Source: Candidatus Lokiarchaeota archaeon (lineage in GTDB: Archaea > Asgardarchaeota > Thorarchaeia > Thorarchaeales > Thorarchaeaceae). From it: a DNA stretch of 41,494 nucleotides. This document shows, piece after piece, positions 1,845 through 30,587 of the stretch (its first letter is position 1; each line of letters begins with the position of its first letter). Location: positions 1-41,494 of the forward strand of contig WJIL01000001.1 of the NCBI GenBank assembly GCA_014730275.1, written 5' to 3'. The notes beneath the pieces were generated by a model, which made no database searches, was not told the DNA's origin, and was given only the letters and a program-made list of their open reading frames with translations. The position numbers were made by a program, and so were the translations under genes.

Positions 1845-3053
1845 TCAGTCTTCCCACAACCGTTTTTGATCCCAGATGTGAACAAGGACAATTAGAGCGA
1901 AGGGACCTCCTGCAAGAATTAGTAAAGCAGGAGAGAATCGTAAATGCATTCTCGTTTGAGCTTTATTGATTCCAAGAGAAGGCAAAATCCAGCGACATAA
2001 AATATTTTCAGCATCCGCTGATTCATGAAGTGTAGCCGCTGTAATTACTGTTACAATGCCCGCATCCGGTAATACAATGATGCCCTGCGAGCCCCATCCT
2101 AAGGCAAAATAGGCATTCAACTCGGGTAATGTCCACCAATGCAATGAATAGCCAACCTTCTCATTGACTTTGACTAGGGTTGTTGATGTTTCCTGAATCC
2201 AGTTTTGTGGAATTATTTGGACACCATCCCAGAGACCCCCTCGGAGAAACAGGTAGCCAATTTTGGCCATATCAAGTGGTTTCAACTTGAGCTTAGAACC
2301 GCCTTCGTTGATACCTCGGGGATCTGTCCCCCATTTGTAGTCCTCTATTCCCAAAGGCTCGAATAAGTATCGGTCTGCAAATGCCGCTGTAGTCATATTG
2401 CTGCTAGTCTGAATAATAGCAGACAGAAGATGTGACAGCCCTGAGTTGTATTGGAAAACAGAACCTGGCGGATTTACGACTTCCTTATTTATGACGTACT
2501 GAATCCAATCCTCTGAACGAATCATCCTGTTGTAATCATTTAGTTCAGCTGTGTAGTACTCTTCGCTCCAATCAAGGCCCGCAGTCATTCTGAGAAGGTG
2601 CGCAATAGTGACTGCTTTCTTCTCATCATCCAGACTTTCAATTTCTTTGTCCTGGAAGAAAGCTAGCATACTGGCATTCACTGAATCGATGAAATCTCTG
2701 TCTTCAGCTATTCCAACCAGGGGGGAGAGTATGCTCTTGGTAACTGAGAAGAGATGATGAAGATCATTCCCCGCATAGTGAGAGAAGTATTCCTCAACTA
2801 CAAGATAACCCCTTCTCACTACAATCAAGGAGTCAATTGTGATTTCGTCGGTCGAGAAGTATTCCACCATGTTTTGCAGGATTGTTGAGTTGAGATTCAC
2901 TTCTTTTGGAGAAGCGCGCATCCAAGAATGGGTTGGCCAAGGAGCATAACCTAGCAACGGGCCTGCACTACCAGTTCTAACTGGAGCTATCTGTGGAATC
3001 AAGAGAAACGCGAAAACAATGGCAGATAGGCAGCTCCTACGGTCCATATTCAT
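1845..3053 (-). CDS. Membrane-anchored serine hydrolase, beta-lactamase/PBP-like fold
   Basis: A serine hydrolase of the beta-lactamase-related family (PF00144 type: class C beta-lactamases, D-alanyl peptidases, esterases). The nucleophile motif SVTK is at residues 103-106, a YNS motif with Tyr202 fits the second box, and GWGSQG near 319-324 fits the third (K/H-T/x-G) box. The N-terminus (about residues 8-25) is a signal sequence. A hydrophobic stretch at about 375-393 followed by basic residues could anchor the C-terminus in the membrane. At 402 residues it has normal length. Two ATGs lie six bases apart at the start, with no clear Shine-Dalgarno, so either may be used. The gene lies 54 bp downstream of the ABC ATPase gene on the same strand and may be read through from it. 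In archaea, which lack murein, the likely role is peptidase or esterase; substrate unknown. Confidence 0.85.
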   Translation of the reverse strand: MNMDRRSCLSAIVFAFLLIPQIAPVRTGSAGPLLGYAPWPTHSWMRASPKEVNLNSTILQNMVEYFSTDEITIDSLIVVRRGYLVVEEYFSHYAGNDLHHLFSVTKSILSPLVGIAEDRDFIDSVNASMLAFFQDKEIESLDDEKKAVTIAHLLRMTAGLDWSEEYYTAELNDYNRMIRSEDWIQYVINKEVVNPPGSVFQYNSGLSHLLSAIIQTSSNMTTAAFADRYLFEPLGIEDYKWGTDPRGINEGGSKLKLKPLDMAKIGYLFLRGGLWDGVQIIPQNWIQETSTTLVKVNEKVGYSLHWWTLPELNAYFALGWGSQGIIVLPDAGIVTVITAATLHESADAENILCRWILPSLGINKAQTRMHLRFSPALLILAGGPFALIVLVHIWDQKRLWED

Positions 3054-3107: not shown

Positions 3108-4106
3108 CTATTCCTTCCAGCAGGCTACATAATGTCCAGGAGAAACCTCGTGAAGAACGGGTTCTTCATCCTCTCGGCAATCTTCTCCAATCTCTTGGCA
3201 CCTTGGTCTGAATCTGCAACCCGGTGGCAAATCGACAGGCGTGGGAGTCTCACCAGGCAACATGATTCGGTCCCGTTCCTCATCGGGATTGGGAATTGGT
3301 ACATTTGATACCAATGCCTTCGTATAGGGATGCCGGGGGTTATGAATGACATCCTCCATTTCACCCATTTCGGCAATTCGCCCCAAGTACATGACGATTA
3401 TGTGATCACCAATGTAACGTGCCTGTGCAAGATCATGAGTGATGAACAGGTATGTCAAATCATGCTCGTCCTTTAGGTCCTCCATCAGGTTCATGACCTC
3501 GGTTCTTATGCTTGCATCCAGCATGGAGACTGGCTCATCTGCGATGATGACAGATGGATTAAGGATAAGCGACCTAGCAACACACACCCGCTGTAGTTGT
3601 CCTCCGCTCAATTCATGTGTATATCTCCGAGCGAAATCCTCAGCAGGAACTAGGCGTACATCTTCAAGAGCATCATAGACCATATCCAAGAGCTCTTCTT
3701 CGTCTTCAACGATGCCATGTATCTTCAGCCCTTCTCCAATAAGTGTGCTAACTGGAAGTCGTGGATCAAGAACTTCGAAGGGGTTTTGGAAAATCATCTG
3801 CATATGCAGTCGAAGTTCGTTCAGCTCCTGTCGGTTCATCTCGTAGATGTTCTCACCCCTGAAGAATGCCTGTCCTTCAGTCGGTTCGATCAGGCGAAGT
3901 ATTGTCCGAGCCAATGTAGTCTTTCCACAGCCGCTTTCCCCAACGACGCAAAGTGAATCTCCCTCTTTAATTTCAAAGCTGACATCATCCACTGCCCGGA
4001 CGTATTTGGTTGCTCCAAAGAAGGAGAATATACCACTTCTAACTGGAAACCACTTCCTTAGATTTCTAACCTCAAGTATGTCTTCAGATTGTGTCATTGT
4101 AATCAC
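3108..4106 (-). CDS. Oligopeptide/dipeptide ABC importer, ATP-binding subunit (DppF/OppF type)
   Basis: One of two cytoplasmic ATPases powering the importer encoded upstream. Visible motifs are Walker A GESGCGKTT (about residues 56-64), signature LSGGQLQRV, Walker B IIADEP and the switch histidine in FITHD. The C-terminus carries the oligo_HPY extension of peptide-importer ATPases, with Cys residues in CRFRPRC, DC and ACW, a pattern linked to metal or Fe-S binding in this family. At 332 residues it has family length. The first possible start is a GTG directly after the TGA of the preceding ATPase. An ATG at 4097 is the alternative; the GGAG that could serve either lies inside the end of the upstream gene, so the start is uncertain by three codons. 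It is the last gene of the transporter operon. Confidence 0.93.
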   Translation of the reverse strand: MITMTQSEDILEVRNLRKWFPVRSGIFSFFGATKYVRAVDDVSFEIKEGDSLCVVGESGCGKTTLARTILRLIEPTEGQAFFRGENIYEMNRQELNELRLHMQMIFQNPFEVLDPRLPVSTLIGEGLKIHGIVEDEEELLDMVYDALEDVRLVPAEDFARRYTHELSGGQLQRVCVARSLILNPSVIIADEPVSMLDASIRTEVMNLMEDLKDEHDLTYLFITHDLAQARYIGDHIIVMYLGRIAEMGEMEDVIHNPRHPYTKALVSNVPIPNPDEERDRIMLPGETPTPVDLPPGCRFRPRCQEIGEDCREDEEPVLHEVSPGHYVACWKE

Positions 4107-5075
4107 TCACTCCAAATCCAGCTCTCCTGCAAAGTGGCACCGAGCGAAATGCCCCGGGTTAACTTCTCGGTATTCAGGGATTTCTACCTTACAGATATCT
4201 TGGGCATAGGGGCATCGAGGGTGGAATTTGCAGCCTGACGGTGGATTAATCAGATTAGGTGGTGTCCCAGGAATAAACTCAAGTCGTTTCTTTGGTCCAG
4301 ATACACTTGGGAATGCACCAATAAGCTTGTGGCTGTAAGGATGAAGACTCCGGTTGAATACGTTAGAGGTTGTACTTTTTTCTACGATGTTCCCAGCATA
4401 CATTATCGCAGTACTGTCACAGTTTTCTGCAACAACGGAGAGATCGTGCGTGATAAACAGGACTCCTAGATCATACTTTTTCTGCAGACTCCTTAGCAAG
4501 TCCAGAATTTTGTTTTGTACAATTACATCAAGAGCTGTGACTGGTTCATCTGCAATAATCAGTTTTGGATCACATGATAGGGCTTGGGCGATGATTGCAC
4601 GTTGAACCATCCCCCCGCTGAATTCATGCGGATAATCCATCATACGCTCTGGTTCCAAGCCAACCTCGTCAAAAAGGTCCGCTACTTTCTCTTTTGCATC
4701 AGACTCCGTGATATCATATTTCTCACGCATCACCTCGATTATCTGATTACCTATTCTGAGCACCGGATTGAAGGCGTTCATCGCGTATTGAAAGACGATT
4801 GAGGCGGTCTTCCAACGAATCTTTCTCATTTCTTTCATTGGTTTTGATATCAAGTCATCCCCATCTAGAAGCACTTGGCCGCCGACGATTCTCCCGTTTT
4901 CAGGGAGTATACGCATGATACTGTATGCAGTAGTCGTTTTACCACATCCAGATTCGCCTGCCAGTCCAAGGGTTTCCTGCTTGTCTATGGTGAAGGAAGC
5001 ATCCTCAACCGCCTTAACCCGTTTTTTTCCCAGCAGATAGTGAGTCGTCAGGTTCTTGACATCCAGTACAACCAT
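4107..5075 (-). CDS. Oligopeptide/dipeptide ABC importer, ATP-binding subunit (DppD/OppD type)
   Basis: The second ATPase of the importer. It has Walker A GESGCGKTT, signature FSGGMVQRA, Walker B LIIADEPVTALD, switch FITHDLSVVAE, and a C-terminal oligo_HPY segment with Cys in CKFHPRCPYAQDIC and ARCHF. Its length, 322 residues, is typical. The ATG at 5075 directly follows the stop codon of the permease gene. GGGAGGAG lies about 7 nt upstream, inside the permease gene's last codons, so translation is probably coupled. It should pair with the DppF-type subunit at the permease coupling helices. Substrate class (peptides versus oligosaccharides, which share this family in archaea) cannot be fixed from the ATPase. 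Confidence 0.94.
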   Translation of the reverse strand: MVVLDVKNLTTHYLLGKKRVKAVEDASFTIDKQETLGLAGESGCGKTTTAYSIMRILPENGRIVGGQVLLDGDDLISKPMKEMRKIRWKTASIVFQYAMNAFNPVLRIGNQIIEVMREKYDITESDAKEKVADLFDEVGLEPERMMDYPHEFSGGMVQRAIIAQALSCDPKLIIADEPVTALDVIVQNKILDLLRSLQKKYDLGVLFITHDLSVVAENCDSTAIMYAGNIVEKSTTSNVFNRSLHPYSHKLIGAFPSVSGPKKRLEFIPGTPPNLINPPSGCKFHPRCPYAQDICKVEIPEYREVNPGHFARCHFAGELDLE

Positions 5076-6653
5076 CTAAGCTCTCCTCCCTCTTAATCTT
5101 GGATTAACCACTTTATCCGCGGCATGGCTTACAAAGGCAAATGCCGTAGAAGTGAGCATAATCATAAGCCCCGGCGGGAAAATCCACCACCACTGCTCAT
5201 TGGATAGCGCAGCCTTTCTAGAAGCCCAATAGAGGATGATTCCCCAACTTGGCTGACCATGAATCGGCATGAATCCCAAAAATGAGATGCCAGCCTCACT
5301 TAGAATAGCGTTAACTACTCCGAGAATAACGTTAGCCAGTATAAGTGGAAGCGTATTCGGGAGGATATGCCGAAATAGTATATAGCTGTCTGATGCTCCA
5401 ATTGCATGAGCAGCCTCTGTGAGTGGTCTCTCTCTGAGAGAAAGAGTCTCGCTCCGAACCATTCTTGCGGTGCCAGTCCATCCGAGTATGGCAATTACAA
5501 TGATAACATTCTGCAATCCCTGTCCATATAGCATCAGGAAAATGAGCATCAGGGGTAGACTTGGCAAACATAGGAATACATCTGTAATCCGCATCAAGAC
5601 GGTATCAATCATTCCACCGTAATAACCAGCAAAGAGGCCAATCAGAGTTCCGATGATTACGGCAACGAGACTAGCTGTCAAACCAACCAATAGAGAAATC
5701 TGCGTGCCCCAGATAACACGCCCAAACAAATCAGCCCCATCATGATTAGTACCAAAAGGATGCTGGAGACTCGGCGGCAAGAACCAATCCGAACTACTAG
5801 GAGACTTGTATGACCAGTGGTAAATAGAACCTAGTGGAGCTATGATTGGAGCGAATACCGCCAGAAGTGCAATGCCAAGTATAAGTAGGAATCCAACTAG
5901 CCCCAGTCTATCATGAACAAACTCTTTCCAGAACTCCTCAATACCACGTCTCAAATCCCATGCCATCATAATCAATCTAGGTATGAATATGTAAAGCGGA
6001 ATAATGATGAAAGCTCCAATGAGGGCGATCCAGGATAATCCGGCATTAGTCAACAAGCCGCCTACTGATCTTGTTAGAAAGGAGGGTAGTAAATCCGCAC
6101 CAACGATATCTTCAGTCAAGAGAATCTCTAGAAACATCCACGTGCCCAGAAAACCCACCACTGAACCGTGGTATAATTTCATCTTCCGCTTGCTCCAGTT
6201 AACGAGCTGCTCTGGATTCCAGAGAAACATCACAAAAGCAGCAATTGCCGCGATTCCTATGCTAAGAACCATGAAGATGAGGAAAACGACTGAGAATTTC
6301 AATATGAGAAGGACTATCTTCGCGGGTCTCTTCTCATATAGCGGCTTTCCAAGGAACCCAATCCAGAGTGTCATAACGAAAAGAATGATTCCCAGTACCC
6401 GGGCCGCAAGAGTGAGTGTGGTGCTGGTGAAGTAATCCAGCTGGGCTATGTCGTAGGTTATGCTCGTCATGAGTGCGTTGACAGCAGTATCAACTGCGAA
6501 AATAATGAAGAATGAAAGCAGAATGAAACTGCCCAGAGAAATCAAATTCACATGCCATGATTTGCCGCGGATATCAAGTTTCTCCATTATTGTTCTCGTT
6601 GTTTCGTCTTCTGTTTCCCGTTGCGTTTTTGTTTCAGCATCTTGATTTTGCAT
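5076..6653 (-). CDS. ABC importer permease (DppC type) with a long multi-helix N-terminal extension
   Basis: Inner permease of the peptide-type importer. Residues about 240-525 are an ordinary DppC/OppC: an N-terminal helix near 252-275, the BPD_transp_1 helices, and an EAA coupling loop beginning EAAHAIGASDSY. In front sits an extra segment of about 240 residues with a charged first 30 residues and five or six predicted membrane helices (about 40-62, 82-102, 112-145, 163-180, 205-230). DppC proteins are usually about 300 residues, so this is a clear family departure. No stop or frame change separates the parts. GAGGAGGGG precedes the ATG, 14 bp after the dppB-like stop. I do not recognise the extension as a named domain; it may be lineage-specific. 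Confidence 0.9.
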   Translation of the reverse strand: MQNQDAETKTQRETEDETTRTIMEKLDIRGKSWHVNLISLGSFILLSFFIIFAVDTAVNALMTSITYDIAQLDYFTSTTLTLAARVLGIILFVMTLWIGFLGKPLYEKRPAKIVLLILKFSVVFLIFMVLSIGIAAIAAFVMFLWNPEQLVNWSKRKMKLYHGSVVGFLGTWMFLEILLTEDIVGADLLPSFLTRSVGGLLTNAGLSWIALIGAFIIIPLYIFIPRLIMMAWDLRRGIEEFWKEFVHDRLGLVGFLLILGIALLAVFAPIIAPLGSIYHWSYKSPSSSDWFLPPSLQHPFGTNHDGADLFGRVIWGTQISLLVGLTASLVAVIIGTLIGLFAGYYGGMIDTVLMRITDVFLCLPSLPLMLIFLMLYGQGLQNVIIVIAILGWTGTARMVRSETLSLRERPLTEAAHAIGASDSYILFRHILPNTLPLILANVILGVVNAILSEAGISFLGFMPIHGQPSWGIILYWASRKAALSNEQWWWIFPPGLMIMLTSTAFAFVSHAADKVVNPRLRGRRA

Positions 6654-6667
6654 ACTGCACCCCTCCT

Positions 6668-7660
6668 CTAGTATCGTATCCTCGGATCCAGATACAGATA
6701 TAATATGTCAGCCGCCAAATTAGCCAAGACAGTGATTGTCGCTAAGAATAGGAATATGCCTTGAAGAACCGGGTAGTCATTCGCAAGTACAGAGAAATAT
6801 GTAAGAAGACCGAGACCCTGCCAACTGAATACGAATTCAGTCATGATAGCTCCTGAAATCAAATACGGTAGATTCACAGCAATCACGCTCACCATAGGGA
6901 GCATCGCGTTTCGCATCGCATGGGTATAGAGTATGGTTTTTTGCTTGAGCCCCTTGGCTTCGGCTGCCAGCATGTAATCCTGTGTAAATACATCTAGAAC
7001 AGAGTCTCTCATTATCAAGTAGAAGCCGCCAATGAACGATAGTGTAAGAACAATAGTGGGGCCGATCATATGCCATCCATAATCAAGTGCATATTCCAAG
7101 AAGTTCGCGTGGTCATATCCCCTTGTTATTGTTCCAGCAATAGGTATCAGATCGAAGTGGAAGCCAAATACCAGCAATAGGAGCAGACCAATCCAGAAGA
7201 CTGGTATGCTGTAGGCCACTAGGAATGTAATCGTCGAACCCGTATCAACCTTTGAACCGCGTCTAGCCGCAGCAACTACCCCCATTATCATTCCGATAAT
7301 GATAGCAATGACAAGCGAGACACCCATCAGGAGAATCGTGTTCATGAATCTATGATCGAATATTGTATACCACACATCTTCGCCGAAATGGGAGAAAGAC
7401 TCACCCAGATTTCCCTGTAACAAATTAGCCCAGTAGAGCAGATATTGCTCCAGTATAGGTTTGTCAAGACCAAATCGCTCCACGATTCGTTGCCTTACAT
7501 CTGGTGGCATTTGTTCGGATATCAAGGAAGCTCTTGGATCACCGGGCATAATTCTGAATATGAAAAAATTCAGGGTCACGATGAGAAACCAGACAAGTAT
7601 GGATTGGGCTACTCGCCGTGCTATGTATCTCAAGGGTTTTTCTGCGTTCTTTGATGGCAT
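6668..7660 (-). CDS. ABC importer permease (DppB type)
   Basis: First permease of the importer, 330 residues. It begins with the typical DppB N-terminal helix (RRVAQSILVWFLIVTLNFFI, residues 15-34), followed by the MPGDPR motif of this subfamily. The core BPD_transp_1 helices follow, with the coupling-loop sequence EAKGLKQKTILYTHAMRNAM and the C-terminal DPRIRY common in DppB. Only a weak purine-rich GTGAGAGA precedes the ATG. The gene is separated from the binding-protein gene by a terminator-like hairpin and has a possible TATA box of its own, so the permease-ATPase genes may be expressed at a lower level than the binding protein. Confidence 0.94.
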   Translation of the reverse strand: MPSKNAEKPLRYIARRVAQSILVWFLIVTLNFFIFRIMPGDPRASLISEQMPPDVRQRIVERFGLDKPILEQYLLYWANLLQGNLGESFSHFGEDVWYTIFDHRFMNTILLMGVSLVIAIIIGMIMGVVAAARRGSKVDTGSTITFLVAYSIPVFWIGLLLLLVFGFHFDLIPIAGTITRGYDHANFLEYALDYGWHMIGPTIVLTLSFIGGFYLIMRDSVLDVFTQDYMLAAEAKGLKQKTILYTHAMRNAMLPMVSVIAVNLPYLISGAIMTEFVFSWQGLGLLTYFSVLANDYPVLQGIFLFLATITVLANLAADILYLYLDPRIRY

Positions 7661-7798: not shown

Positions 7799-9532
7799 CT
7801 ATTTCTTCTTCATATAGAAGTAGACAACAATAGCCGCAACGACAAGTGCTCCAGCGCCGACACCGATGATCAATATCAGGTCAACGTCACCTGCTGGTGG
7901 TGCAACACCTGGGAACTCTCTAACGCCGTCGTTGTCCACGTCAATGTAGCCGGCATCATCAAGTATCTGATTCGCCAAATCTACATCTTCCTCGAATATC
8001 CCACCCTCATCATACAGAGTCGGGAAGAATGATTGAGGAATGACGGTATCCGTCTCGGTTCCGTAACCAAGTCTGCCAACCTCGACCAGATAGGTTCTGT
8101 TCATAGCCAAGCTGATTGCTCGACGTACATCGAGATCATCAAAGCCAGGTATGGTCATGTTGAAACCAAGGACATAGTCCCACTGAGAGGTAACGCCGGT
8201 CACTAGATGGAGCTCTTCAGCTTCCTGTATGGTCTGAACGTACGGGCCAAAGACCTCGTATCTTTCAGAATCAGCTTCATCATTTCGCATAGCGAGGATA
8301 CGTGCATCCTGACCTGCGATGACATCAATGCGAATGACGTCGATATATGGCTCGGGGCCCCACCAGTCAGTGTTTCTATTAAGCTCCGTGTACTCGTCAG
8401 GGTCTCGCTCATAGAATTCGAACGGACCTGAACCGACGTGAGCTGTTGTATTTGTGGCGTCATCCCATCGAGCATCATCAGCTGGTATACCTTCACGGAT
8501 ATGCTTGGGGAGGATGTACAGATCACCCAAGATTTGCAGACCGAATGAATACGAATCATCCAATTCAACAGTTACATCTTGGCCACTGATTGTGACATCC
8601 TCGATGTTCTGCATGAATGAATGCGCTATTGCATCCTCTGGTGCATTCTTGTAGTGATAGAAAGTGAAATTCACATCTTGCGGAGTAAGATCCTCTCCAT
8701 CATGCCACTTCACATTTTCACGGATAGTGAATGTGATTTCGGTTCCATCAGTGCTAACACTGAAATCTTCAGCCAGCCAAGGAATAGGTTCAAGATTGTT
8801 GTTGTAGGTGATCAATGTATCGTAGACGAGCATATCGTACCAGTGAGAGCGCTCACTGCGATAGAACATAGGATTGAGTTCGCCTATGTCTGAACCATAA
8901 GCCATTACAAACTCCATGTCTCCGCTTGTATGGTCCTCATCATACATATAGATAGGAGTCTGTGGGTTGAATGCAGTGAATACACCTCCTGGTTTCTTGG
9001 TGTAGTTGACCCACTCTTTGCGGATGGCGTGGGTGTCGTCTGATAGCATTAATGGAATATATGGCATGTTATCAACTGCGTATTGTTGTACCAAGGCCGC
9101 GTTGTCCTCCAGATTGGCAGGAGTAGAGGTCATGAAATCGTCTAATGCGTCATCTACTGTCGCATTGTCTATGCCATAACAGTTGTCGCCCCAGTCTTTT
9201 ATGTTCTCAGAGTGCATTCTCCAATACACATGATCTGGTACGCTGCTATAGCCGTGACTCATTTCATAGAGTTGGAATTGCCTCGGCTCTTGATAGATTC
9301 CTTCATACATAGGACCGTCGTCTTTGATTACGACTTCGATGTCTATGCCGATTTCCTCAAGCAGTGTCTCTATTGCACCACCCGTGTCTACGCTGATATC
9401 GTCCCAACTGAGCACCCAGAGTGGGTATGAAAGCTCAGGTGTGGCATCAGCCTGTGCGTACACTGGAATAGTAGACCAGGGTATGAGTAGAGCTACCGCT
9501 AGTAAGGATAGCATTGCTTTTCTCTTATTCAT
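7799..9532 (-). CDS. ABC importer substrate-binding protein (SBP family 5), apparently circularly permuted, membrane-anchored
   Basis: Extracytoplasmic binding protein for the Dpp/Opp-type importer. Residues 1-27 are a signal peptide and about 551-573 a membrane helix ending in KKK, an anchor common in archaeal binding proteins. The domain order is unusual. Residues about 195-545 match the normal N-terminal part: LNP near 220, YDTL, PWLAEDF, WHDGEDLTPQDV, SGPFEF, then FNMTIPGFDDLDVRRAI, and ILDDAGY near 523-530. There the normal protein would continue into its C-terminal lobe, but here the anchor follows. The missing part appears at residues about 35-185 instead: IETLLEEIGIDIEV, a stretch ending in YAVDNMPYIPLML, then RKEWVNY. 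This reads as a circular permutation within one uninterrupted frame. AAGGAGAT precedes the ATG. Ligand is probably peptide, not provable here. Confidence 0.88.
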   Translation of the reverse strand: MNKRKAMLSLLAVALLIPWSTIPVYAQADATPELSYPLWVLSWDDISVDTGGAIETLLEEIGIDIEVVIKDDGPMYEGIYQEPRQFQLYEMSHGYSSVPDHVYWRMHSENIKDWGDNCYGIDNATVDDALDDFMTSTPANLEDNAALVQQYAVDNMPYIPLMLSDDTHAIRKEWVNYTKKPGGVFTAFNPQTPIYMYDEDHTSGDMEFVMAYGSDIGELNPMFYRSERSHWYDMLVYDTLITYNNNLEPIPWLAEDFSVSTDGTEITFTIRENVKWHDGEDLTPQDVNFTFYHYKNAPEDAIAHSFMQNIEDVTISGQDVTVELDDSYSFGLQILGDLYILPKHIREGIPADDARWDDATNTTAHVGSGPFEFYERDPDEYTELNRNTDWWGPEPYIDVIRIDVIAGQDARILAMRNDEADSERYEVFGPYVQTIQEAEELHLVTGVTSQWDYVLGFNMTIPGFDDLDVRRAISLAMNRTYLVEVGRLGYGTETDTVIPQSFFPTLYDEGGIFEEDVDLANQILDDAGYIDVDNDGVREFPGVAPPAGDVDLILIIGVGAGALVVAAIVVYFYMKKK

Positions 9533-9641: not shown

Positions 9642-10415
9642 TTACAAGAATTTCTGAAAAATGAGACGAAAACATATTTGATTAAGAGAAAGCAATCGGG
9701 ACATAGGACGTCCAGATTTTCTAGAATCATTCAAAGTGCCAGATAGAGGGCTTTCCAGAACCAATGGTCGCTTTTGTTTGGTTTCGATACTCTTGTAGAG
9801 AATCACTACCATCTCAGCAAACAGACGTGATCCGACTTCCACTCGAGTTGGCTTCTCAGATGGGGACAGGTTTAGTACAATGGAAGTCGCCTTCACCCAT
9901 GCATCTACACTCGTTTTCTCTTGAGTCATAGTCTCCTGTTGGCGTATGGTTGTGGGTGATCGAGGCAAAAACAAAGATGCTGCGCTCCGGAAAAGAGAGT
10001 TACTCTCGCGGATTTTCTTATTCACAGTCTCCAATTCTTGTTGTTGCGACGTGCGTGAATCGAGCATCTTTCCCACGAAATCACAAATAGCATCCTCCTC
10101 TGCAATAGGAAGGCTATCAGTAGATACAAGATTCACTTCCTCGACTGCGGCTTCAGTGTATCTAGGTCGCCACAGCAGAAGCCACTCGTTGTTATCAGTC
10201 ACTGATGAAAAAAGATACTCATCCAGCAGGCTCGATGCCAGCAATCTATTGGACTCACCAAAAAAATGGACTTCACGAAATGGATACAAAAATGGTTCCG
10301 AAATTACGTATTCTTCAGTTGGTTGCTTTGTGATAAAACCCTTCTTCTTGCAGTTTTGGTGGGCATATGACTCGATGTCGGCAGTATCGAAATCAAAGCC
10401 AGCAAGTATTTCCAA
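9642..10415 (-). CDS. Unrecognised protein; 5' end uncertain
   Basis: I do not recognise this protein. It is 257 residues when read from a TTG at 10415, soluble, without a signal peptide or membrane helix. The middle (about 120-140) is rich in Gln, Glu and Lys and may form a coiled coil. The frame stays open for 31 codons upstream, to a stop at 10509-10511, and that stretch reads like genuine protein (for example LDKALYASFSKTFFEAG) but has no ATG, GTG or TTG. An adjacent frame offers GTG-ACA-GTG at 10501, overlapping the end of the amidohydrolase gene. One additional A in the five-A run at about 10487-10491 would join that start to this frame. So the gene either starts at the TTG or carries a frameshift or sequencing error. 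It probably forms an operon with the amidohydrolase. Confidence 0.55.
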   Translation of the reverse strand: MEILAGFDFDTADIESYAHQNCKKKGFITKQPTEEYVISEPFLYPFREVHFFGESNRLLASSLLDEYLFSSVTDNNEWLLLWRPRYTEAAVEEVNLVSTDSLPIAEEDAICDFVGKMLDSRTSQQQELETVNKKIRESNSLFRSAASLFLPRSPTTIRQQETMTQEKTSVDAWVKATSIVLNLSPSEKPTRVEVGSRLFAEMVVILYKSIETKQKRPLVLESPLSGTLNDSRKSGRPMSRLLSLNQICFRLIFQKFL

Positions 10416-10497: not shown

Positions 10498-11706
10498 TCA
10501 CACCGCTCTTAGTAACCTCCCCATAAGCATCACATTGTCTATCAAGTCCGGATTACGGAGCGAGCTTATGTCTTTCAGGGGATCAACACCAGGCTTGAGA
10601 ACTAGCAAATCAGCAGACTTGCCCTCTTCCAAGGTTCCGATACTACCCTGAATTGCTAATGATTTGGCAGCATGTAATGTTCCCGCAACGATTGCATCCA
10701 TCTCCGACATGCCGCCCATTTCTACCAGTATCTCTAATTCCTCCATGGAGGATGTTCCAAAAGGAGTATAGGGCATTCCAGAATCGGAACCTAAGACAAT
10801 AGCCAATTCAGCTGAAACAGCTCTTCGCAACCCCGCTTCCATAAGAGGGTAAAGCTCTTTCTCCTTGCGAATCATATGTTCCGGCAGGAGTCCCTCTTCA
10901 TGATGGAGCTGGGACTCGTGATACGTTACGAACGTAGGCATGTACATCGTTCCATGCTCTTTCATGAGTTGGATGTTCTCTTCACTGAGTGGCTGACCGT
11001 GAACTAGCACATCAACCCCTGCACGTATAGTGTTCGCTATGCCTTGGTCTCCATATGCATGCGCGTGAGTCAGAATACCTACTTTGTGAGCTTCTTCAAC
11101 TGCTGCAGCCATTTCTTCAACTGTGAATTGAACATGCATGCTTTCGGTGCTCTCGGAACTGATAGCTCCTGTGGCTGCTAGCTTGATGAAACTGACTCCC
11201 CGTGCTATTTCCTCTCTTGTCGCTCTGCGAACCTCATCCGGACCATCAGCCTCGTTGTAGTCATAAATTGGATCTCTTCCCCCAGTGATTGTAATCATAC
11301 GTCCGCATGGCAATATTCTGGGACCATTGACTAGACCTTTCTCAATCGAATCTCGAATTGCAAAAGGCACCTCACCTCGTGCTGCTGCATCACCAACCGT
11401 GGTTATCCCTGAACGAAGTAGATGTTCTGCAAGCTTAGCTGCCCGAATAGATAGATATTCATCAGACAGCTTCCGACTCTCAGATGGATCTGGTGTTCCA
11501 CCATCGTGGCATAGGTGTACATGTGGATCGATAATCCCAGGCATAATTACACGGTCAGAAAAGTCAAGTTTCTTTGAAGCGCTTTTGGTAGGCTTCTTAG
11601 TCGTGATCTTTGCTATCTTACTTCCCTCAACAAGCAAAAATGCGTCTTCCAAGAGTTTGCCATTTCCAACAATAACGGTTCCAGCACTGATGAGGTAGCT
11701 AGTCAT
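10498..11706 (-). CDS. Metal-dependent amidohydrolase (imidazolonepropionase/Xaa-Pro dipeptidase-like)
   Basis: A cytoplasmic amidohydrolase-superfamily enzyme (PF01979 type) that hydrolyses C-N bonds in a TIM barrel with one or two metals. Visible ligands are DPHVH (His62, His64), a lysine in FIKLAATG that could be carboxylated, HAHAYG, VLVHGQ and the catalytic Asp in VLGSDSGMP. The C-terminal IGTLEEGKSADLLVL segment is the usual small beta-domain closure. At 402 residues it has normal length for the branch containing archaeal and actinobacterial prolidase or arginine-carboxypeptidase-like enzymes, so a dipeptide or N-acyl amino acid substrate is plausible beside a peptide importer; this is inference. 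AGGTGA sits 6 nt before the ATG. Its TGA at 10498-10500 abuts the 5' region of the next gene. Confidence 0.9.
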   Translation of the reverse strand: MTSYLISAGTVIVGNGKLLEDAFLLVEGSKIAKITTKKPTKSASKKLDFSDRVIMPGIIDPHVHLCHDGGTPDPSESRKLSDEYLSIRAAKLAEHLLRSGITTVGDAAARGEVPFAIRDSIEKGLVNGPRILPCGRMITITGGRDPIYDYNEADGPDEVRRATREEIARGVSFIKLAATGAISSESTESMHVQFTVEEMAAAVEEAHKVGILTHAHAYGDQGIANTIRAGVDVLVHGQPLSEENIQLMKEHGTMYMPTFVTYHESQLHHEEGLLPEHMIRKEKELYPLMEAGLRRAVSAELAIVLGSDSGMPYTPFGTSSMEELEILVEMGGMSEMDAIVAGTLHAAKSLAIQGSIGTLEEGKSADLLVLKPGVDPLKDISSLRNPDLIDNVMLMGRLLRAV

Positions 11707-15020: not shown

Positions 15021-18020
15021 CTAGCGTTTCTTCATCAGCACGATGATTAGAATCAGAACCAAGGCACCGATGGCAGCTAGCACGATTAGAGTATCAACAC
15101 CAAAGATAGTCTCTGGGAGCCCGAAGGGACCTGTGTCTGTTGGCGTAGTAGTTGTCTCTGTTGGGGTGGTAGTTTCTGTTGCTGTTGTTGTGGTTGTTGT
15201 AGTTGAAGCAGCTATGAAGACGGTAACATTCTCAAGAGAAGTCCAGTCACTCCAACGTCCCAGAGTATCATTCGAGCGGATTCTATACTCGATTGATGTG
15301 TCGTTTTCGAAAGTACCAAGGCTTACATTGAATTCGTCACCAGAACTAGGCTCCATGGTCACTGTTGTCCAACTAGTACCACCGTCAACGGTGTAATTGC
15401 AAATCACAGAGGATATGCCAGAGATATCAGTGACATTCGCTTCAATCCAAATTGAATCGGCTGGTTCAGGTGAGCTGGGAGAATGCGCGAACTCCAATAT
15501 GGTCGGGCCCATGTTATCAACTGTAAATACTGCGTCCGATTCATCCATCGAATCAAGTTCGTAGTCCCTTGCTATCACTCGCACTTGAAATTCCGCGCCA
15601 TCTCCAACACTTGTTGTGTCCCAAGATACACTAGTGCCACTAAGATTGGTACCGATAGAGTACCAGCTTGATCCAGAATCATCACTGTAGTAGACATCAA
15701 ACAGAATCTGGTCCTTGTTTGGATCCTGGGCTGACCAAGTAATTGCTGAGTTGTCTGAAAGGGTCTCTCCCCCATTAGGAGACACCACAGTTACCTCCGG
15801 CGCACGATTCTCTGCTAGCCACCCAAAAGCGTTGGAAACAAATAGATCGTTATCACTGTCATAAAGATTATTCTCACCATCTCCATCATTGTCTGCATTG
15901 TACATCAAGAATCTATAATCAGCAGCGTAGACTATCCTACCAAGTCCAAAAGTGCTAGCGGCAATCACGGAAAGGTCATTTGCTGTACCACCATCTGACC
16001 ACGTACAGGTTCCATCATCATCAGTATTTAGAAGAGAGACGGCACCCCCTATGCTGTTGAAAGCTGAGCTATAGACTAACTCCATTCTCTTCGTCCCTTC
16101 CATTATCCGATGGTTGCTCAAGTTTGCTTCATCATAGACGATAACACCAGCTGAGGGAGAGTCATCCGAGTCTTGCAGATAGCCGGTGTTGTTTCTATCT
16201 ATCCCGAACGCATTTCCAACCTTGTCGGCCTCAAGACCAAATTGACCCCATCCCCCACATATGAACAAGCCTCCACCTGAATCAGCAAAATTCTTCAAAT
16301 AATCTATTTCGGATACTGTGTAGTTCTCCCACCCATCTTGGATGACAATGACATGCGCCCGGTCAATCATCTCTTCATCAAATTGAGTCATCCAATGCAC
16401 AGTATGACCATTTTCGGTAAGGAAGTTCGCAAAACCGTAGTATGAAGCATTGATCCAGAGATTTGCGCGGTGAGATTCATCGAACAGGACAATACGCTCT
16501 TTTTGTCCAGCTCCAGATAACCAGCGAATGGAGTTCAGCAGAAAAATCTCATTATTGCTGTCATAGAAGTTTTTCGTGCCATCCATATCGGTGTCAGTGT
16601 CACCCTTAAGAAGAGAAGAGTCACAATGAACCAAGACTCTTCCGGTACCCACGGTAGTTACTGCGGTAATCACCATTCCTTCAGCAGACGTACCGTTCGT
16701 CCAAGTCATCTCTTCATCCGCCACGGTAATTTTCGTTGCATCATCTGGTATCTTTGTCAATGCTGTGGCTCCATGATTTTCTATCCTTGCCACACCGACC
16801 GATACAGAATGGTTTCGTATGTGATTTGTATTGTTTAGATAGAAGCCGCCACCCACACCGACACCGTTAGATCCATTTACTAGACTGTATGTTTTCTGTC
16901 TCACGAAACCGAATCTTTCGATAACAGGGTCAATTTCATCTCCATATTGTGAGTATTCAGCTGCAACAAATAGCGCACCGCCTCCCTCAACAAAATCCTC
17001 GATGGTGTCTACTTCGAACTCTTGGTATGTATCAAAACAATATGTTAACACAAGAATATCACACGCCCCAATCCAATCGGCATCGAATGTCTCCATACTC
17101 GATACTGCAAAACCGATAGATGTAAGCTCTTCAGTGTAATTAATGAACCCACTCGAAATGCTTTCAAGTTGGGAATGCGAATTATCAAAAACAACATGCC
17201 TATGAAGTCGAACAGCATTGGCCAGAATTGTATCGAAGTATATTGACCTTGTAAACAAGTCAAAACCAAGCAATGCGATATGGCCTTTTCCTATGATTTT
17301 GTGAGTCACTACTGCCTGGGAACTGCTATTCACTGATGGAATTCCATCATAGACATCAAACGCCACTGTTCCACTGACTGCAGGGAATGTTGAATCGTAT
17401 ATGCCCCTAGGAAGTGGATCACTAGAGTTCTCCAGACTTAATGTTCCAGAACCGAATGAGCTTGGATTGTAGACCTGCAGCAAACCAGTTTGGTTTAAGA
17501 TTCCAGCAGTAATCCCACGCGTACTCATAAACGAACCTACGTAGTCCATAACAATCAGTATTCCTCCCGAAGCTACGAAGTCCTCCAGAATCGATTCCCA
17601 AGCAGATGCAATAGTTGTGATATTGGTCGGATAAGCATTTTCTTGTTCAACAATCAACAAGATGTCATGCTCGTCAATCTTGTTGGCCAATTCTGTATAA
17701 TCTGTGAGATTCTCATACCGAAACACGGGGCCGTAAGTTGATTGAAGCGATTCTATTGTGTTCCTGAATTCATTATTTGAGGTAGAAGTCAAATCGGTAA
17801 ACTCGGTATACACAAGCAATGATACTGGCAGACGGTTTTTTGAGAATGCCGACGGCATCTCGGCCCCAGTAAAGGATCTCGTATTGAGATTTCTTTTTAG
17901 CTCTAAAATCTCGTTTGCATCATCCCCCTCCTGACCTGTATCTATGATACCAGTAGGCGAAAAAAACAGGGTTGAGAAAACGAGCAACGTGGATAGAAAT
18001 ATGAATACACTTTTTCCCAT
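15021..18020 (-). CDS. Large anchored surface protein with tandem GATase-like modules and Ig-like domains
   Basis: An exported protein of 999 residues from ATG 18020. A longer reading from an ATG at 18065 is unlikely, because that ATG lies inside the TATA box. From this start, residues 4-24 form the signal sequence. Three modules resembling type 1 glutamine amidotransferase/ThuA-like or DUF4350-like folds follow. Each has a hydrophobic strand such as ILLIVEQ or VIVIQDG and a glycine-rich GGILIVMDY or GGGLFICGGW turn; no complete catalytic triad was seen. Two modules end in acidic calcium-loop-like stretches (DTDTDMDGTKNFYD, DNDGDGENNLYDSDND). Next come two Ig/FN3-like domains (VVSPNGGETL onward), a Thr/Pro stalk, a membrane helix and a basic KKR end. 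Role unknown; carbohydrate or protein binding at the cell surface is possible. Confidence 0.85.
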   Translation of the reverse strand: MGKSVFIFLSTLLVFSTLFFSPTGIIDTGQEGDDANEILELKRNLNTRSFTGAEMPSAFSKNRLPVSLLVYTEFTDLTSTSNNEFRNTIESLQSTYGPVFRYENLTDYTELANKIDEHDILLIVEQENAYPTNITTIASAWESILEDFVASGGILIVMDYVGSFMSTRGITAGILNQTGLLQVYNPSSFGSGTLSLENSSDPLPRGIYDSTFPAVSGTVAFDVYDGIPSVNSSSQAVVTHKIIGKGHIALLGFDLFTRSIYFDTILANAVRLHRHVVFDNSHSQLESISSGFINYTEELTSIGFAVSSMETFDADWIGACDILVLTYCFDTYQEFEVDTIEDFVEGGGALFVAAEYSQYGDEIDPVIERFGFVRQKTYSLVNGSNGVGVGGGFYLNNTNHIRNHSVSVGVARIENHGATALTKIPDDATKITVADEEMTWTNGTSAEGMVITAVTTVGTGRVLVHCDSSLLKGDTDTDMDGTKNFYDSNNEIFLLNSIRWLSGAGQKERIVLFDESHRANLWINASYYGFANFLTENGHTVHWMTQFDEEMIDRAHVIVIQDGWENYTVSEIDYLKNFADSGGGLFICGGWGQFGLEADKVGNAFGIDRNNTGYLQDSDDSPSAGVIVYDEANLSNHRIMEGTKRMELVYSSAFNSIGGAVSLLNTDDDGTCTWSDGGTANDLSVIAASTFGLGRIVYAADYRFLMYNADNDGDGENNLYDSDNDLFVSNAFGWLAENRAPEVTVVSPNGGETLSDNSAITWSAQDPNKDQILFDVYYSDDSGSSWYSIGTNLSGTSVSWDTTSVGDGAEFQVRVIARDYELDSMDESDAVFTVDNMGPTILEFAHSPSSPEPADSIWIEANVTDISGISSVICNYTVDGGTSWTTVTMEPSSGDEFNVSLGTFENDTSIEYRIRSNDTLGRWSDWTSLENVTVFIAASTTTTTTTATETTTPTETTTTPTDTGPFGLPETIFGVDTLIVLAAIGALVLILIIVLMKKR

Positions 18021-18063
18021 GATATTCACGCAGCGTGCTTTTCGTTTTAAGAAACATTTTGAC

Positions 18064-18072
18064 ATATAAATA
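18064..18072 (-). promoter_or_regulatory. TATA box for the large surface-protein gene
   Basis: TATTTATAT on the minus strand, preceded by CCAAG. A transcript starting about 25 nt downstream (near 18042) would have a short leader of about 20 nt before ATG 18020. This decides the start choice for the gene. Confidence 0.65.
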
Positions 18073-26790: not shown

Positions 26791-27008
26791 GCGCAGCTGA
26801 GATTTATTAGGTACGATGTATTTTAGTTTTCCAACAAAATACACCATTAATGGTCCAATGGCTGAGATTCCACCTGTCGAATCAAGGTTCTACCGCACGT
26901 GCGGAGCTGAATCGACAAAGTAATTCGGATGTAGGAGTTACACTGGAACTCAATCATGAGAGGATGATGAGTGTGGAAAATTGTCGCGTCAACGGAGGAG
27001 GAAAACCC

Positions 27009-30000
27009 TTGAGGAAAATCCTGAGCTTATTCTTCATAACAATCATGCTAATTTTACCTGTTCAAACGCAGTTTGTGCCAACGAATCAACTGAGTGTGGA
27101 ACCTGCACGCACCGTCTTAGCGCAAGAACCTGGAACTCGACTAGAAGGTGAAAATCTTGCACCCCATGTTCCCATCTATATCAATGATACGACGGATTTC
27201 CAAAGCCAAGGATGGCCTGGTACTGGTACTGAAGGAGACCCATTTGTGATATCTGATCTCAATATCACCTACGATATAGACCAAGTGCTGATTAGAATCT
27301 ATAACGTAGATTCGTATTTCGTTATCAGAGACTGCTATCTTGGTCAATTGTCAGTCAGTTGGGGAATTCACATAGAGAATGTAACAAATGCTGCCATTGA
27401 ATTCGTTACAGTATCTTCGAAAGGAAACGGAATCAACTTCGTTAACACAATCAATTCTACCATATCCTACGTTGATGCAAATGTCGAGACCCCAGAGGGT
27501 TTGAACGTTCTCAGCTCTGCGAATGTGGAAATCGAGCATAATCGGATTTCAGGATATGGGCTTTATGTCAGAGAGAGTAGCGGAATCGAGGTGCAGTACA
27601 ACGAGATAACAGATGCAGGAGCGATTGGTGCTCTCATCTATCAATCAAATGGCACTATGATTTCATCCAATCAAATTCTGCGCACAACGAATTTTGGTGT
27701 TCGACTGGAGAATAGCAGTTTCTGCGAAATCAATGGGAATACCATTGAAGAATCGGGAACCAATGGAATCCATCTTGTACTCTCTGAATACACGATTATC
27801 GAAAACAACGAAATTCGCTACGCAGGCAGTCGAGGTATCCAATTTGATAGCGACGAATGGATAGAAATTGTAGGAAACCACATTAGCAACGTTAGCAGTC
27901 ATCCAATTTACACTGGAGATTCAGCCAACGGCATAATATCTGGCAACGAAATAATGGATAATCCATCAAGTGCGGGGGTTGTCTTTCAAACAGCGGTGGA
28001 GAACTTCACAATCAGCAACAACTACATCGAAAACACTTGGGGCGGGATATTCACGATGTCTGGTTCCAATGTAAACATGACAGGGAACATCATAGAAGAC
28101 GTTCATAATTACTTCATTGCGCATCAATCAATACCTGACGGTTTGGTATTCAACAATACCTGTGCAGATTCAGATGAGTTCGGTCTGTACGTGACGATGT
28201 CTCCCAGAACAGTTGTTTCTAATAATGTTGTAAACGGCTCTGGAATTCGCTCAATAATTGTGGATCGCGCAAACATCACAGTAAGTGGAAACCTAGTGTA
28301 CGACTCTCCATTAGGAATCCAGGCAACCTCAAATGCCAACAATGTGAGTGTCTTTGATAATCAACTGTACTCGATAGACGTAGCTATCCAGATATCTGGA
28401 GATGACGCTTTTGTTGATTCGAATCAAATCATGGATTGTGGTACAGGAATCGAAATAAATTCGGGTGCAGAAGAAGCTGATATTTCTAAGAATGACATTG
28501 ACAATGTGGATGATGGGATTTACCTCACAGGGTCCAATATATCTGCCAGCAACAACACCATCGGTAATGCGGATTATGGCATTTACATAGATAGTGCTGT
28601 GAATCCAGAATTGGAAGACAATATCATCGGAGCCTCAACAATTGGAATCTATATTCATTCTTCAACCAATGGACTATTCGAAGGCAACAACATGACGGAG
28701 TGTGGTTTCTATTTCAGTAATGGGCAGTCCATTGCTAACCTCAATCACTCATTTGCCGAGAATCACGTAAATGAGAAACCCGTCTATTATGCCCTTAATG
28801 AACAGGCACTTGGTCTCGATGGAGCGGATTACGGTGAAATCATTTTGGTCAATTGCTCAGACTCTTCCATCAATGGTGGTGTGTTTACGTGGAGCACTTC
28901 TGCTTTCTTGATTTATCATTCAGAGAGAATCGACATATCAAATGTTCACCTGTCAGATTTATGGTATCCAGTGTCGGTTTATCAGACCGCTAATCTTACA
29001 ATCGAGGATTCCATTTTCGGAGGCAGGTTGAATACGGCCGTAATTTACGCCGACTATTCAGATGGTTTGGCGGTGTACAACGGATCGTTTACGCAACTAG
29101 ACGGAGATGCAATCTCCATCAGGAACACAAACCCATACTCAGTTGAGCAAAGTCATTTCTCAGATATCACAGGTTCTGCAATATTCACCTATTCGGTCTC
29201 TGATGGAACTATACAAGGAAATGACTTCATCAACGCTACATACGGGGTCAGGTTCACTTTCACCTACGATACTCTTGTCAATGATTGTGTGTTTATGTGG
29301 AATACTTATGGCATTCATTCGTCTTCGGAATCTGACGATAACAATGTAACGTTCAACACCATTCATGATAACCAGTATGGAATAAGAATGGATGACTCCT
29401 TCACATGGTACATATACAACAACACAGTAAGATGGAATTCCTACGGTGTATATATCACCACTACAAATGACGATCAGTGGATTTACAATAACACATTTGC
29501 CTTGAATGCCATATACAACGGATATGATGATGGTGCGGATTATTGGGATGACCGTACTGATGGGGGCAACTACTGGGGCGACTATGATGGCACAGGTGTT
29601 CACGATATACCCGGCGGAACTTCCGTAGATCGCTGGCCCTACAAATATGTTGAGACAGAACCGATTATCAACAATCCGCAGGACATCTGGTATGCTGAAG
29701 GGTCGGAAGGCAATAAGATAACATGGCTGCCTTTTGATAACAATCTTAGAGATTGGACTGTGGAAATAGATGGCAGTCTCTGGGCATCAGGCGCCTGGAA
29801 TTACAATAATGTATCTGTAAATATTGACGGGCTCCCATACGGAATGCATGAAGCAATAATCATGGTGCGAGATCTTGATGATAATAATGTCACAGACTCA
29901 GTGCTGATTCATGTCTTTGATGACACCGCACCGGAAATCGACCATATTCCCGATAGAATCGCATTCGTTGATGGAACAGATCAAATGCTCTCATGGGAGG

Positions 30001-30587
30001 TTTCCGATCTAAATCCTGCAACCTATCAGGTCTATGTCGATGGTAGCGAGCTAGAAGACGGAACTTGGACATCAGGCACTCTCGAAGTGGATATAGATGG
30101 TTTCGCAGCTGGAATTCATCAATTCCAAATCGTAATTACAGATGTGGATGGGAACGAAGCTACCGATACTGTTGATGTAAGATTCATCGAAGATGATGAG
30201 GGGCCAACCATCGACAGCCCACCGGATCTCATGTATGTCGTGGATACGACTGGAAATTCCATCGTATGGTCACCGTCTGATGAGTATCCAGACTATTACG
30301 TCATTTCAAGCAATGAGACAGAAATCAAGCAAGGGAATTGGGGAGGATCCCGAATAACACTCAATGTGGATGGTCTTGATGTTGGTACTCATTCATTCAC
30401 CTTGACGGTTTATGACGGCAGTGGTCAGAGCGCTTCAGATTCTGTGAATGTGACGGTTCTACCCACGCAGCCAACCACACCAGAACAACCGCTTGACTAT
30501 CTAACAGTCTTGCTCATAGGAGCCGCGATAGGAGGGACTGTTCTTGTGATTGCTGGCGTCCTTTACTACAGGAGGGAAAAACAGTGA
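27009..30587 (+). CDS. Surface-anchored NosD-like beta-helix protein with Ig-like stalk (first paralogue)
   Basis: A very large exported protein of 1192 residues. TTG 27009 is preferred because GGAGGAGG (26994-27001) lies 7 nt before it and the signal peptide then starts at once (LRKILSLFFITIMLILPV). An in-frame ATG at 26850 would add 53 unlikely residues. After an entry motif, QGWPGTGTEGDPFVISDLNI, some 30 or more right-handed beta-helix repeats (NosD/PbH1 type, with recurring N-x-I/V-x-x-N steps) run to about residue 870. A NYWGDYDGTG closing motif, three Ig-like repeats, a membrane helix and a basic end follow. Such proteins bind or cleave polysaccharides, but no catalytic motif is visible. 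The next gene overlaps its stop codon. Confidence 0.88.
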   Translation: MRKILSLFFITIMLILPVQTQFVPTNQLSVEPARTVLAQEPGTRLEGENLAPHVPIYINDTTDFQSQGWPGTGTEGDPFVISDLNITYDIDQVLIRIYNVDSYFVIRDCYLGQLSVSWGIHIENVTNAAIEFVTVSSKGNGINFVNTINSTISYVDANVETPEGLNVLSSANVEIEHNRISGYGLYVRESSGIEVQYNEITDAGAIGALIYQSNGTMISSNQILRTTNFGVRLENSSFCEINGNTIEESGTNGIHLVLSEYTIIENNEIRYAGSRGIQFDSDEWIEIVGNHISNVSSHPIYTGDSANGIISGNEIMDNPSSAGVVFQTAVENFTISNNYIENTWGGIFTMSGSNVNMTGNIIEDVHNYFIAHQSIPDGLVFNNTCADSDEFGLYVTMSPRTVVSNNVVNGSGIRSIIVDRANITVSGNLVYDSPLGIQATSNANNVSVFDNQLYSIDVAIQISGDDAFVDSNQIMDCGTGIEINSGAEEADISKNDIDNVDDGIYLTGSNISASNNTIGNADYGIYIDSAVNPELEDNIIGASTIGIYIHSSTNGLFEGNNMTECGFYFSNGQSIANLNHSFAENHVNEKPVYYALNEQALGLDGADYGEIILVNCSDSSINGGVFTWSTSAFLIYHSERIDISNVHLSDLWYPVSVYQTANLTIEDSIFGGRLNTAVIYADYSDGLAVYNGSFTQLDGDAISIRNTNPYSVEQSHFSDITGSAIFTYSVSDGTIQGNDFINATYGVRFTFTYDTLVNDCVFMWNTYGIHSSSESDDNNVTFNTIHDNQYGIRMDDSFTWYIYNNTVRWNSYGVYITTTNDDQWIYNNTFALNAIYNGYDDGADYWDDRTDGGNYWGDYDGTGVHDIPGGTSVDRWPYKYVETEPIINNPQDIWYAEGSEGNKITWLPFDNNLRDWTVEIDGSLWASGAWNYNNVSVNIDGLPYGMHEAIIMVRDLDDNNVTDSVLIHVFDDTAPEIDHIPDRIAFVDGTDQMLSWEVSDLNPATYQVYVDGSELEDGTWTSGTLEVDIDGFAAGIHQFQIVITDVDGNEATDTVDVRFIEDDEGPTIDSPPDLMYVVDTTGNSIVWSPSDEYPDYYVISSNETEIKQGNWGGSRITLNVDGLDVGTHSFTLTVYDGSGQSASDSVNVTVLPTQPTTPEQPLDYLTVLLIGAAIGGTVLVIAGVLYYRREKQ

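Follow-up and report, generated by a model that had tools for sequence, protein, structure and literature searches.

A circularly permuted family 5 solute-binding protein encoded in an Asgard archaeal DppBCDF-type importer operon

The 41,494-nucleotide stretch of Asgard archaeal DNA analyzed here (contig WJIL01000001.1; hereafter, the window) encodes a 577-aa solute-binding protein (SBP) at 7799..9532 on the minus strand, which begins with a predicted signal peptide and ends in a predicted transmembrane (TM) segment. An initial annotation made from the sequence proposed that this protein is a circular permutant, in which the lobe that closes the chain of other family 5 SBPs follows directly on the signal peptide. 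The locus raises the question of whether this arrangement is real, and, if so, how rearranged chains are distributed and arose within a family taken as having a single order.

The operon and the order of segments in the window SBP

The SBP gene lies beside two permeases and two oligo_HPY ATPases (3108-7660), all of them likewise on the minus strand: a DppB/OppB-type permease (6668..7660; PF00528 at 2.7e-36, PF19300), a DppC/OppC-type permease (5076..6653; PF00528 at 2.3e-28 over residues 335-521, OppC_N at 240-274), and DppD-type (4107..5075) and DppF-type (3108..4106) ATPases, each with ABC_tran and oligo_HPY matches. The gene product is very probably the SBP of a DppBCDF-type importer of the peptide/nickel/oligosaccharide class, a homologue of DppA, AppA, and NikA with permuted topology. 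At its N-terminus, the window DppC is longer by about 235 residues, a stretch with many membrane segments; this extension is present in close operons of either SBP order and is unmatched in the f20 and f12 operons. The ORF list places an uncharacterized 257-aa ORF directly upstream of the SBP gene (9642..10415, minus strand), and an ORF of about 260 aa occupies the same position in four operon copies (the window, L030 5125-5922, L048 1322-2104, and L049 9680-10474). Pfam and NCBIfam searches with this ORF returned no match.

Normal-order Asgard homologues were split into three segments, with one profile made for each: S1 (start of the protein to NPxYW), S2 (to the loop past ILDxAGY), and S3 (the C-lobe). 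The canonical order of N-terminal part, middle, and C-lobe is not found in the window SBP; instead, the order is S3-S1-S2. S3, the C-lobe segment relocated to the N-terminus, matches residues 35-188 (8969..9430, minus strand; 5e-30); S1, the canonical N-terminal segment to the NxDWW motif, matches residues 206-393 (8354..8917, minus strand; 2e-47); and S2, the canonical middle segment ending in ILDDAGY, matches residues 395-534 (7931..8350, minus strand; 2e-35). With two close orthologues removed from the profiles, the matches remained at 3e-28 for S1, 3e-19 for S2, and a modest 2e-5 for S3, and no segment profile matched any of 20 shuffles or the reversed sequence below 0.03. The moved lobe had been placed by eye at residues 35-185, within a few residues of the profile boundaries, and the motifs named in support of the permutation are all present: LNP (as ELNP, 218-221) and WHDG (276-279) within S1, FNMTIPGFDDLDVRRA at 457-472, and ILDDAGY at 523-529. 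The canonical order is the rule among solved family 5 members and is not in the Pfam definition; the window SBP is a family 5 homologue with a distinct topology, not a canonical member.

Searched with Pfam SBP_bac_5 (PF00496), the protein could also be read as a C-terminally truncated family 5 SBP preceded by an unrelated N-terminal domain at residues 35-188. This profile detects only residues 248-538, corresponding to profile positions 1-287 of 368 (211.6 bits against a cut-off of 32.4); the remainder of the profile is absent past residue 538, where there is little but the TM helix. Searches of PDB chains with phmmer align residues ~207-541 with the first two thirds of the NikA, AppA, and DppA chains; a second, weak match pairs residues 43-166 with AppA 369-491, out of order in the chain and correctly placed on the C-lobe. 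A profile of the S3 region (the window SBP and relatives) matches solved structures at the C-terminal lobe (AppA 364-504; DppA 344-495; OppA 359-501; and, at 4e-17, 5u4o 376-510). Among the best 60 chains listed in each PDB search, none aligned end-to-end with a permuted protein.

In sister genomes, the equivalent operon (upstream ORF of ~260 aa, SBP, B, C, D, and F) carries a normal-order SBP. Residues 203-545 and 31-199 of the window SBP match consecutive, abutting stretches of the orthologue in genome G006 (61% and 56% identity, respectively), which bears out the proposal that the breakpoints are reciprocal and that no family 5 segment is missing; it is to the C-terminal segment of the normal-order orthologue L048 that residues 31-199 are 56% identical. 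The SBP of G004 agrees with that of G006 in its normal order, and an SBP in G021, without adjacent permeases, is also in normal order. At the level of sequence, these syntenic orthologues are the decisive evidence of permutation and show the cut directly. Together with the segment profiles, they uphold the central claim of the initial annotation, and they refute the reading of an unrelated domain on a truncated protein, which we consider extremely improbable.

Comparison with L048 also delimits the joints. In that normal-order protein, S3 ends in ...MVFMYDDGSSDEP ahead of the TM, and S1 begins at AQDAAEMPFVMAYG after the signal peptide; in the window SBP, these canonical C- and N-termini are joined at residues 189-205 (...QTPIYMYDEDHTSG/DMEF...; 8918..8968, minus strand). 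The canonical order puts S3 after REFPG, and L048 runs NFPGTAPTDELEFDLL straight into S3; the corresponding stretch of the window SBP consists of the last residues of the S2 loop (REFPG) followed by a short tether of ~10 residues (residues 535-551; 7880..7930, minus strand). While the operon, the segment order, and the homology of all three segments can be read off directly, the terminal elements are predicted: the signal peptide (residues 1-27; 9452..9532, minus strand) from a hydrophobic N-terminal stretch, scored in 56 of 56 homologues, and the C-terminal TM anchor (residues 552-576; 7805..7879, minus strand) from an AF2 helix at 552-576 and a hydrophobicity of 2.97. Both elements stay at the chain ends in either order, indicating that the mature region has been rotated between them.

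The window genome is a draft of 151 contigs, in which an assembly or binning artefact might have exchanged two halves of the gene. However, the SBP of Thorarchaeota SMTZ1-45 (69%) has its segments in the same S3-S1-S2 order, which excludes assembly error, and this order recurs in the independent assemblies of G052, G118, f20, and the non-Asgard archaeon G342. The arrangement occupies a single frame in SMTZ1-45 and G052, it also occurs on fully assembled plasmids from cultured haloarchaea and rhizobia, and frame, signal peptide, and TM are preserved at the breakpoints. Refuted by the same order in other assemblies and on complete plasmids, an artefact has a virtually negligible probability.

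In-frame stop codons were observed in three SBP genes. The normal-order SBP gene of G004 has a TAG at its start (L049, 7822-9378, minus strand), where relatives have Trp (RSERSHW), and the S3-S1-S2 genes of G118 (L143) and G100 (L155) have one TGA each.

Predicted fold, tethering, and ligand

The AF2 model of the window SBP, based on an alignment of 19 sequences, has a mean pLDDT of 79.9 and a pTM of 0.78. The input alignment (A3) was composed of close pieces; in another alignment (A2), MAFFT laid distant S3 pieces over S1-S2. The PDB matches listed by Foldseek for this model are family 5 SBPs, and among the matches listed, mostly ~360-380 of ~500 columns are aligned, with target TM-scores of ~0.4-0.5; such partial coverage is as expected of a sequential aligner if one segment is out of order. 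A model of the S2-S3-S1 form discussed below (pLDDT 84.7, pTM 0.80) gave a similar Foldseek picture. The structural case draws on sequence order, AF2 confidence, and Foldseek summaries; on these, the window SBP would probably fold as one two-lobed flytrap.

In canonical family 5 proteins such as DppA and OppA, both termini lie in the N-lobe, which makes such a rotation possible. Exported via its signal peptide, the S3-S1-S2 chain, as a rotation of S1-S2-S3, would still form the usual flytrap, with the canonical N- and C-termini bridged by a short linker of ~17 residues and the new termini placed in the C-lobe loop past ILDxAGY (about 340-344 in DppA). The tether of ~10 residues would then hold the C-lobe, not the N-lobe, at the membrane, from where the protein would deliver its ligand to DppBC. 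In E. coli DppABCDF, scoop helices of DppB touch both lobes (PMC12136057); a C-lobe tether could therefore alter the docking geometry. The window SBP has the same three segments and DppBCDF partners as family 5, or cluster C, SBPs (PF00496: DppA, OppA, AppA, NikA) and, by prediction, would probably share their fold, but differs from them in its S3-S1-S2 order and in having its termini and anchor on the C-lobe.

Permuted SBPs of family 5 did not appear in the open-access literature searched, although such absence is not proof; the nearest precedent is TpMglB-2 (Tp0684), a circularly permuted, glucose-binding SBP of 'cluster Bc' for which tethering was suggested as the cause (PMC4990184). Both are naturally permuted SBPs of ABC importers, and TpMglB-2 keeps a bilobed fold and is tethered. 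However, TpMglB-2 has a cluster B (type I) fold and belongs to another family, whereas the sequence and Foldseek matches of the window SBP are to cluster C; in TpMglB-2, only N-lobe strands are displaced, and one topology is described rather than several interchanging orders. The window SBP works like TpMglB-2 but is not a member of cluster Bc.

That the permutation adapts the protein to membrane tethering, the cause suggested for TpMglB-2, is compatible with the permuted topology, and a C-terminal TM is scored in 29 of 31 permuted Asgard proteins as compared with 15 of 25 in normal order, although these counts are non-independent and reflect one large clade. The initial annotation had taken the new C-terminus to serve as a membrane anchor. 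A TM is indeed located there, but the permutation did not give rise to it: whichever of the three chain orders an Asgard protein has, its anchor is at the C-terminus, the normal-order orthologues carry the same one, and the rotated chain now hangs from it by the other lobe. Additionally, in alphaproteobacterial S3-S1-S2 SBPs the chain stops after S2 and no TM follows, and the haloarchaeal proteins begin with lipoprotein-like N-termini. Since these forms exist, tethering is unlikely as a general cause, and we regard it as a rather improbable explanation of the permutation. The occurrence of tethered and untethered permutants within one family bears on the hypothesis advanced for TpMglB-2 (PMC4990184).

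The window SBP reaches none of the NCBIfam equivalog cut-offs and stays well below them (Opp4A, 140 of 650 bits; NikA, 122 of 393). Peptides are a plausible ligand of the importer on the basis of nearby hydrolase genes, which in the window encode an amidohydrolase (10498-11706) and a protein of beta-lactamase fold (1845-3053); M20 and S9 peptidases are encoded beside L030 and L049.

Distribution and history of the chain orders

Family 5 has at least three chain orders. The other classifiable SBP_bac_5 ORFs in the window genome are all S2-S3-S1, with profile positions 141-364 ahead of 3-143 and the N-lobe opened at NPxYW^xxPYiD. This form is common in the archaeal family of the window genome: close homologues occur in 37 of the 59 relatives searched, nearly all within that family; Asgard genomes beyond that family have mostly the normal order, with both permuted forms included. 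The S2-S3-S1 permutants (e.g., P0002, G000 contig C95) share the family, signal peptide, C-terminal anchor, and kind of rotation of the window SBP but differ in the site of the cut and in their closest solved relatives, which are chitooligosaccharide- and mannoside- (mannooligosaccharide-) binding SBPs (A4 profile / P0002, L032 3560-5389). Judging from this similarity, the group may import oligosaccharides.

Several S2-S3-S1 genes occur in unusual settings. At least five are clustered on one contig at L031 (G000:C61:46000-65900), and comparable arrays lie in G047:C173 and G006:C234, an arrangement in which unequal recombination could occur. An S2-S3-S1 SBP is fused in frame to an apparent subtilisin-like region in L034 (1-6435, minus strand) and to repeated beta-rich domains in L035 (4910-7633, minus strand), and in L037 (4107-6049, minus strand) a frameshift has broken the gene into two ORFs that overlap.

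A junction search of 393 archaeal genomes, with follow-up, identified both permuted forms in non-Asgard archaea as well. The 68 archaeal proteins classified comprise 29 S1-S2-S3, 23 S2-S3-S1, and 16 S3-S1-S2, counts that are not frequencies, as the set was gathered by similarity; the three non-cyclic orders were found in none of the 68. S3-S1-S2 genes also occur on plasmids, in many haloarchaea and in Alphaproteobacteria; they adjoin permease and ATPase genes and are annotated as SBPs with nothing to mark the permutation. The alphaproteobacterial examples (Nitratireductor, Neorhizobium, Microvirga, Roseomonas, Ketogulonicigenium, and Maritalea) were identified by single-piece tblastn, and the six full-length haloarchaeal and alphaproteobacterial proteins checked by profile are all S3-S1-S2. 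The survey of homologues suggested at the outset thus finds both permuted orders to be widespread in Asgard archaea, and the permutation of the window SBP in other archaea, haloarchaea, and rhizobia as well, so that it is no one-off. Confinement to Thorarchaeota, and then to Asgard archaea, was considered and is refuted by these wider occurrences. Family members misread in this respect number well over a hundred in the window genome's archaeal family, with profile annotation spanning part of the chain.

A tree of 56 rotated sequences implies at least nine order changes (mean of 25 for shuffled labels), and at least seven when restricted to nodes with UFBoot >= 95; deep nodes of the trees are weak. 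For the window's group, AU tests reject a single clade of all S3-S1-S2 proteins (p 0.007) and of all S1-S2-S3 proteins (p 0.006). In the permease/ATPase tree, the permuted window, SMTZ1-45, and G041 operons adjoin a normal-order clade, and the permuted G052/G118 and f20 fall outside.

The initial annotation implied that the protein was normal until recently and was then permuted. The window order would then have arisen recently and independently from a normal-order chain, and its recurrence elsewhere would reflect parallel events at one loop, a convergent hot spot. The normal-order orthologues of the sister genomes, at 60-62% identity, are consistent with this history, as is the prevalence of the normal order in solved structures. 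However, S3-S1-S2 is also found in G052 and in the successive outgroups G342 and f20, which favors a permuted ancestor; parsimony requires two steps, both reversions, from such an ancestor, as compared with three to four gains under the alternative. Furthermore, the sequences at the termini agree among the window, SMTZ1-45, and G052 (DA.PxLSFxLWVLSWDD; RE(F/Y)PGV). A recent permutation therefore appears doubtful, if possible. On parsimony, and with support of only ~80-90 at some key nodes, the window's clade is likely to have had a permuted ancestor from which G021 and the G006/G004 clade each returned to the normal order.

The window SBP is one of many permutants, in S3-S1-S2 or S2-S3-S1 order, that are not described as such in the literature searched and have changed order repeatedly, probably with reversals among the changes. 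Whether family 5 SBPs at large switch repeatedly and reversibly among all three rotations at two fixed cut sites, with the canonical order regained in G006/G004 and G021, is a proposal on which we are evenly divided; if true, chain order in this family is an evolutionarily labile trait and not a family constant. The most likely origin of the S3-S1-S2 form is an in-frame duplication of the mature region, from signal peptide to anchor, with the outer parts then lost. This route, proposed from the start, stays the likely one, although no intermediate with two copies of a segment was found among the proteins classified.

Natural circular permutations are usually encountered as one-time, ancient events that separate distant homologues. 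In this family, orthologues from the same operon with ~60% identity occur in either order, and all three rotations are represented among related clades, which allows fold, stability, ligand affinity, and docking to be compared across orders with little else changed. A return from a permuted order, if confirmed, would be highly exceptional.

The window also encodes large surface proteins. A 1014-aa protein (15021-18065, minus strand) matches the IFT52 GIFT domain (1.4e-9) and DUF4350, and two adjacent, similar proteins of more than 1200 aa (26850-34222, plus strand), the first with beta-helix/NosD repeats, both end in a TM.
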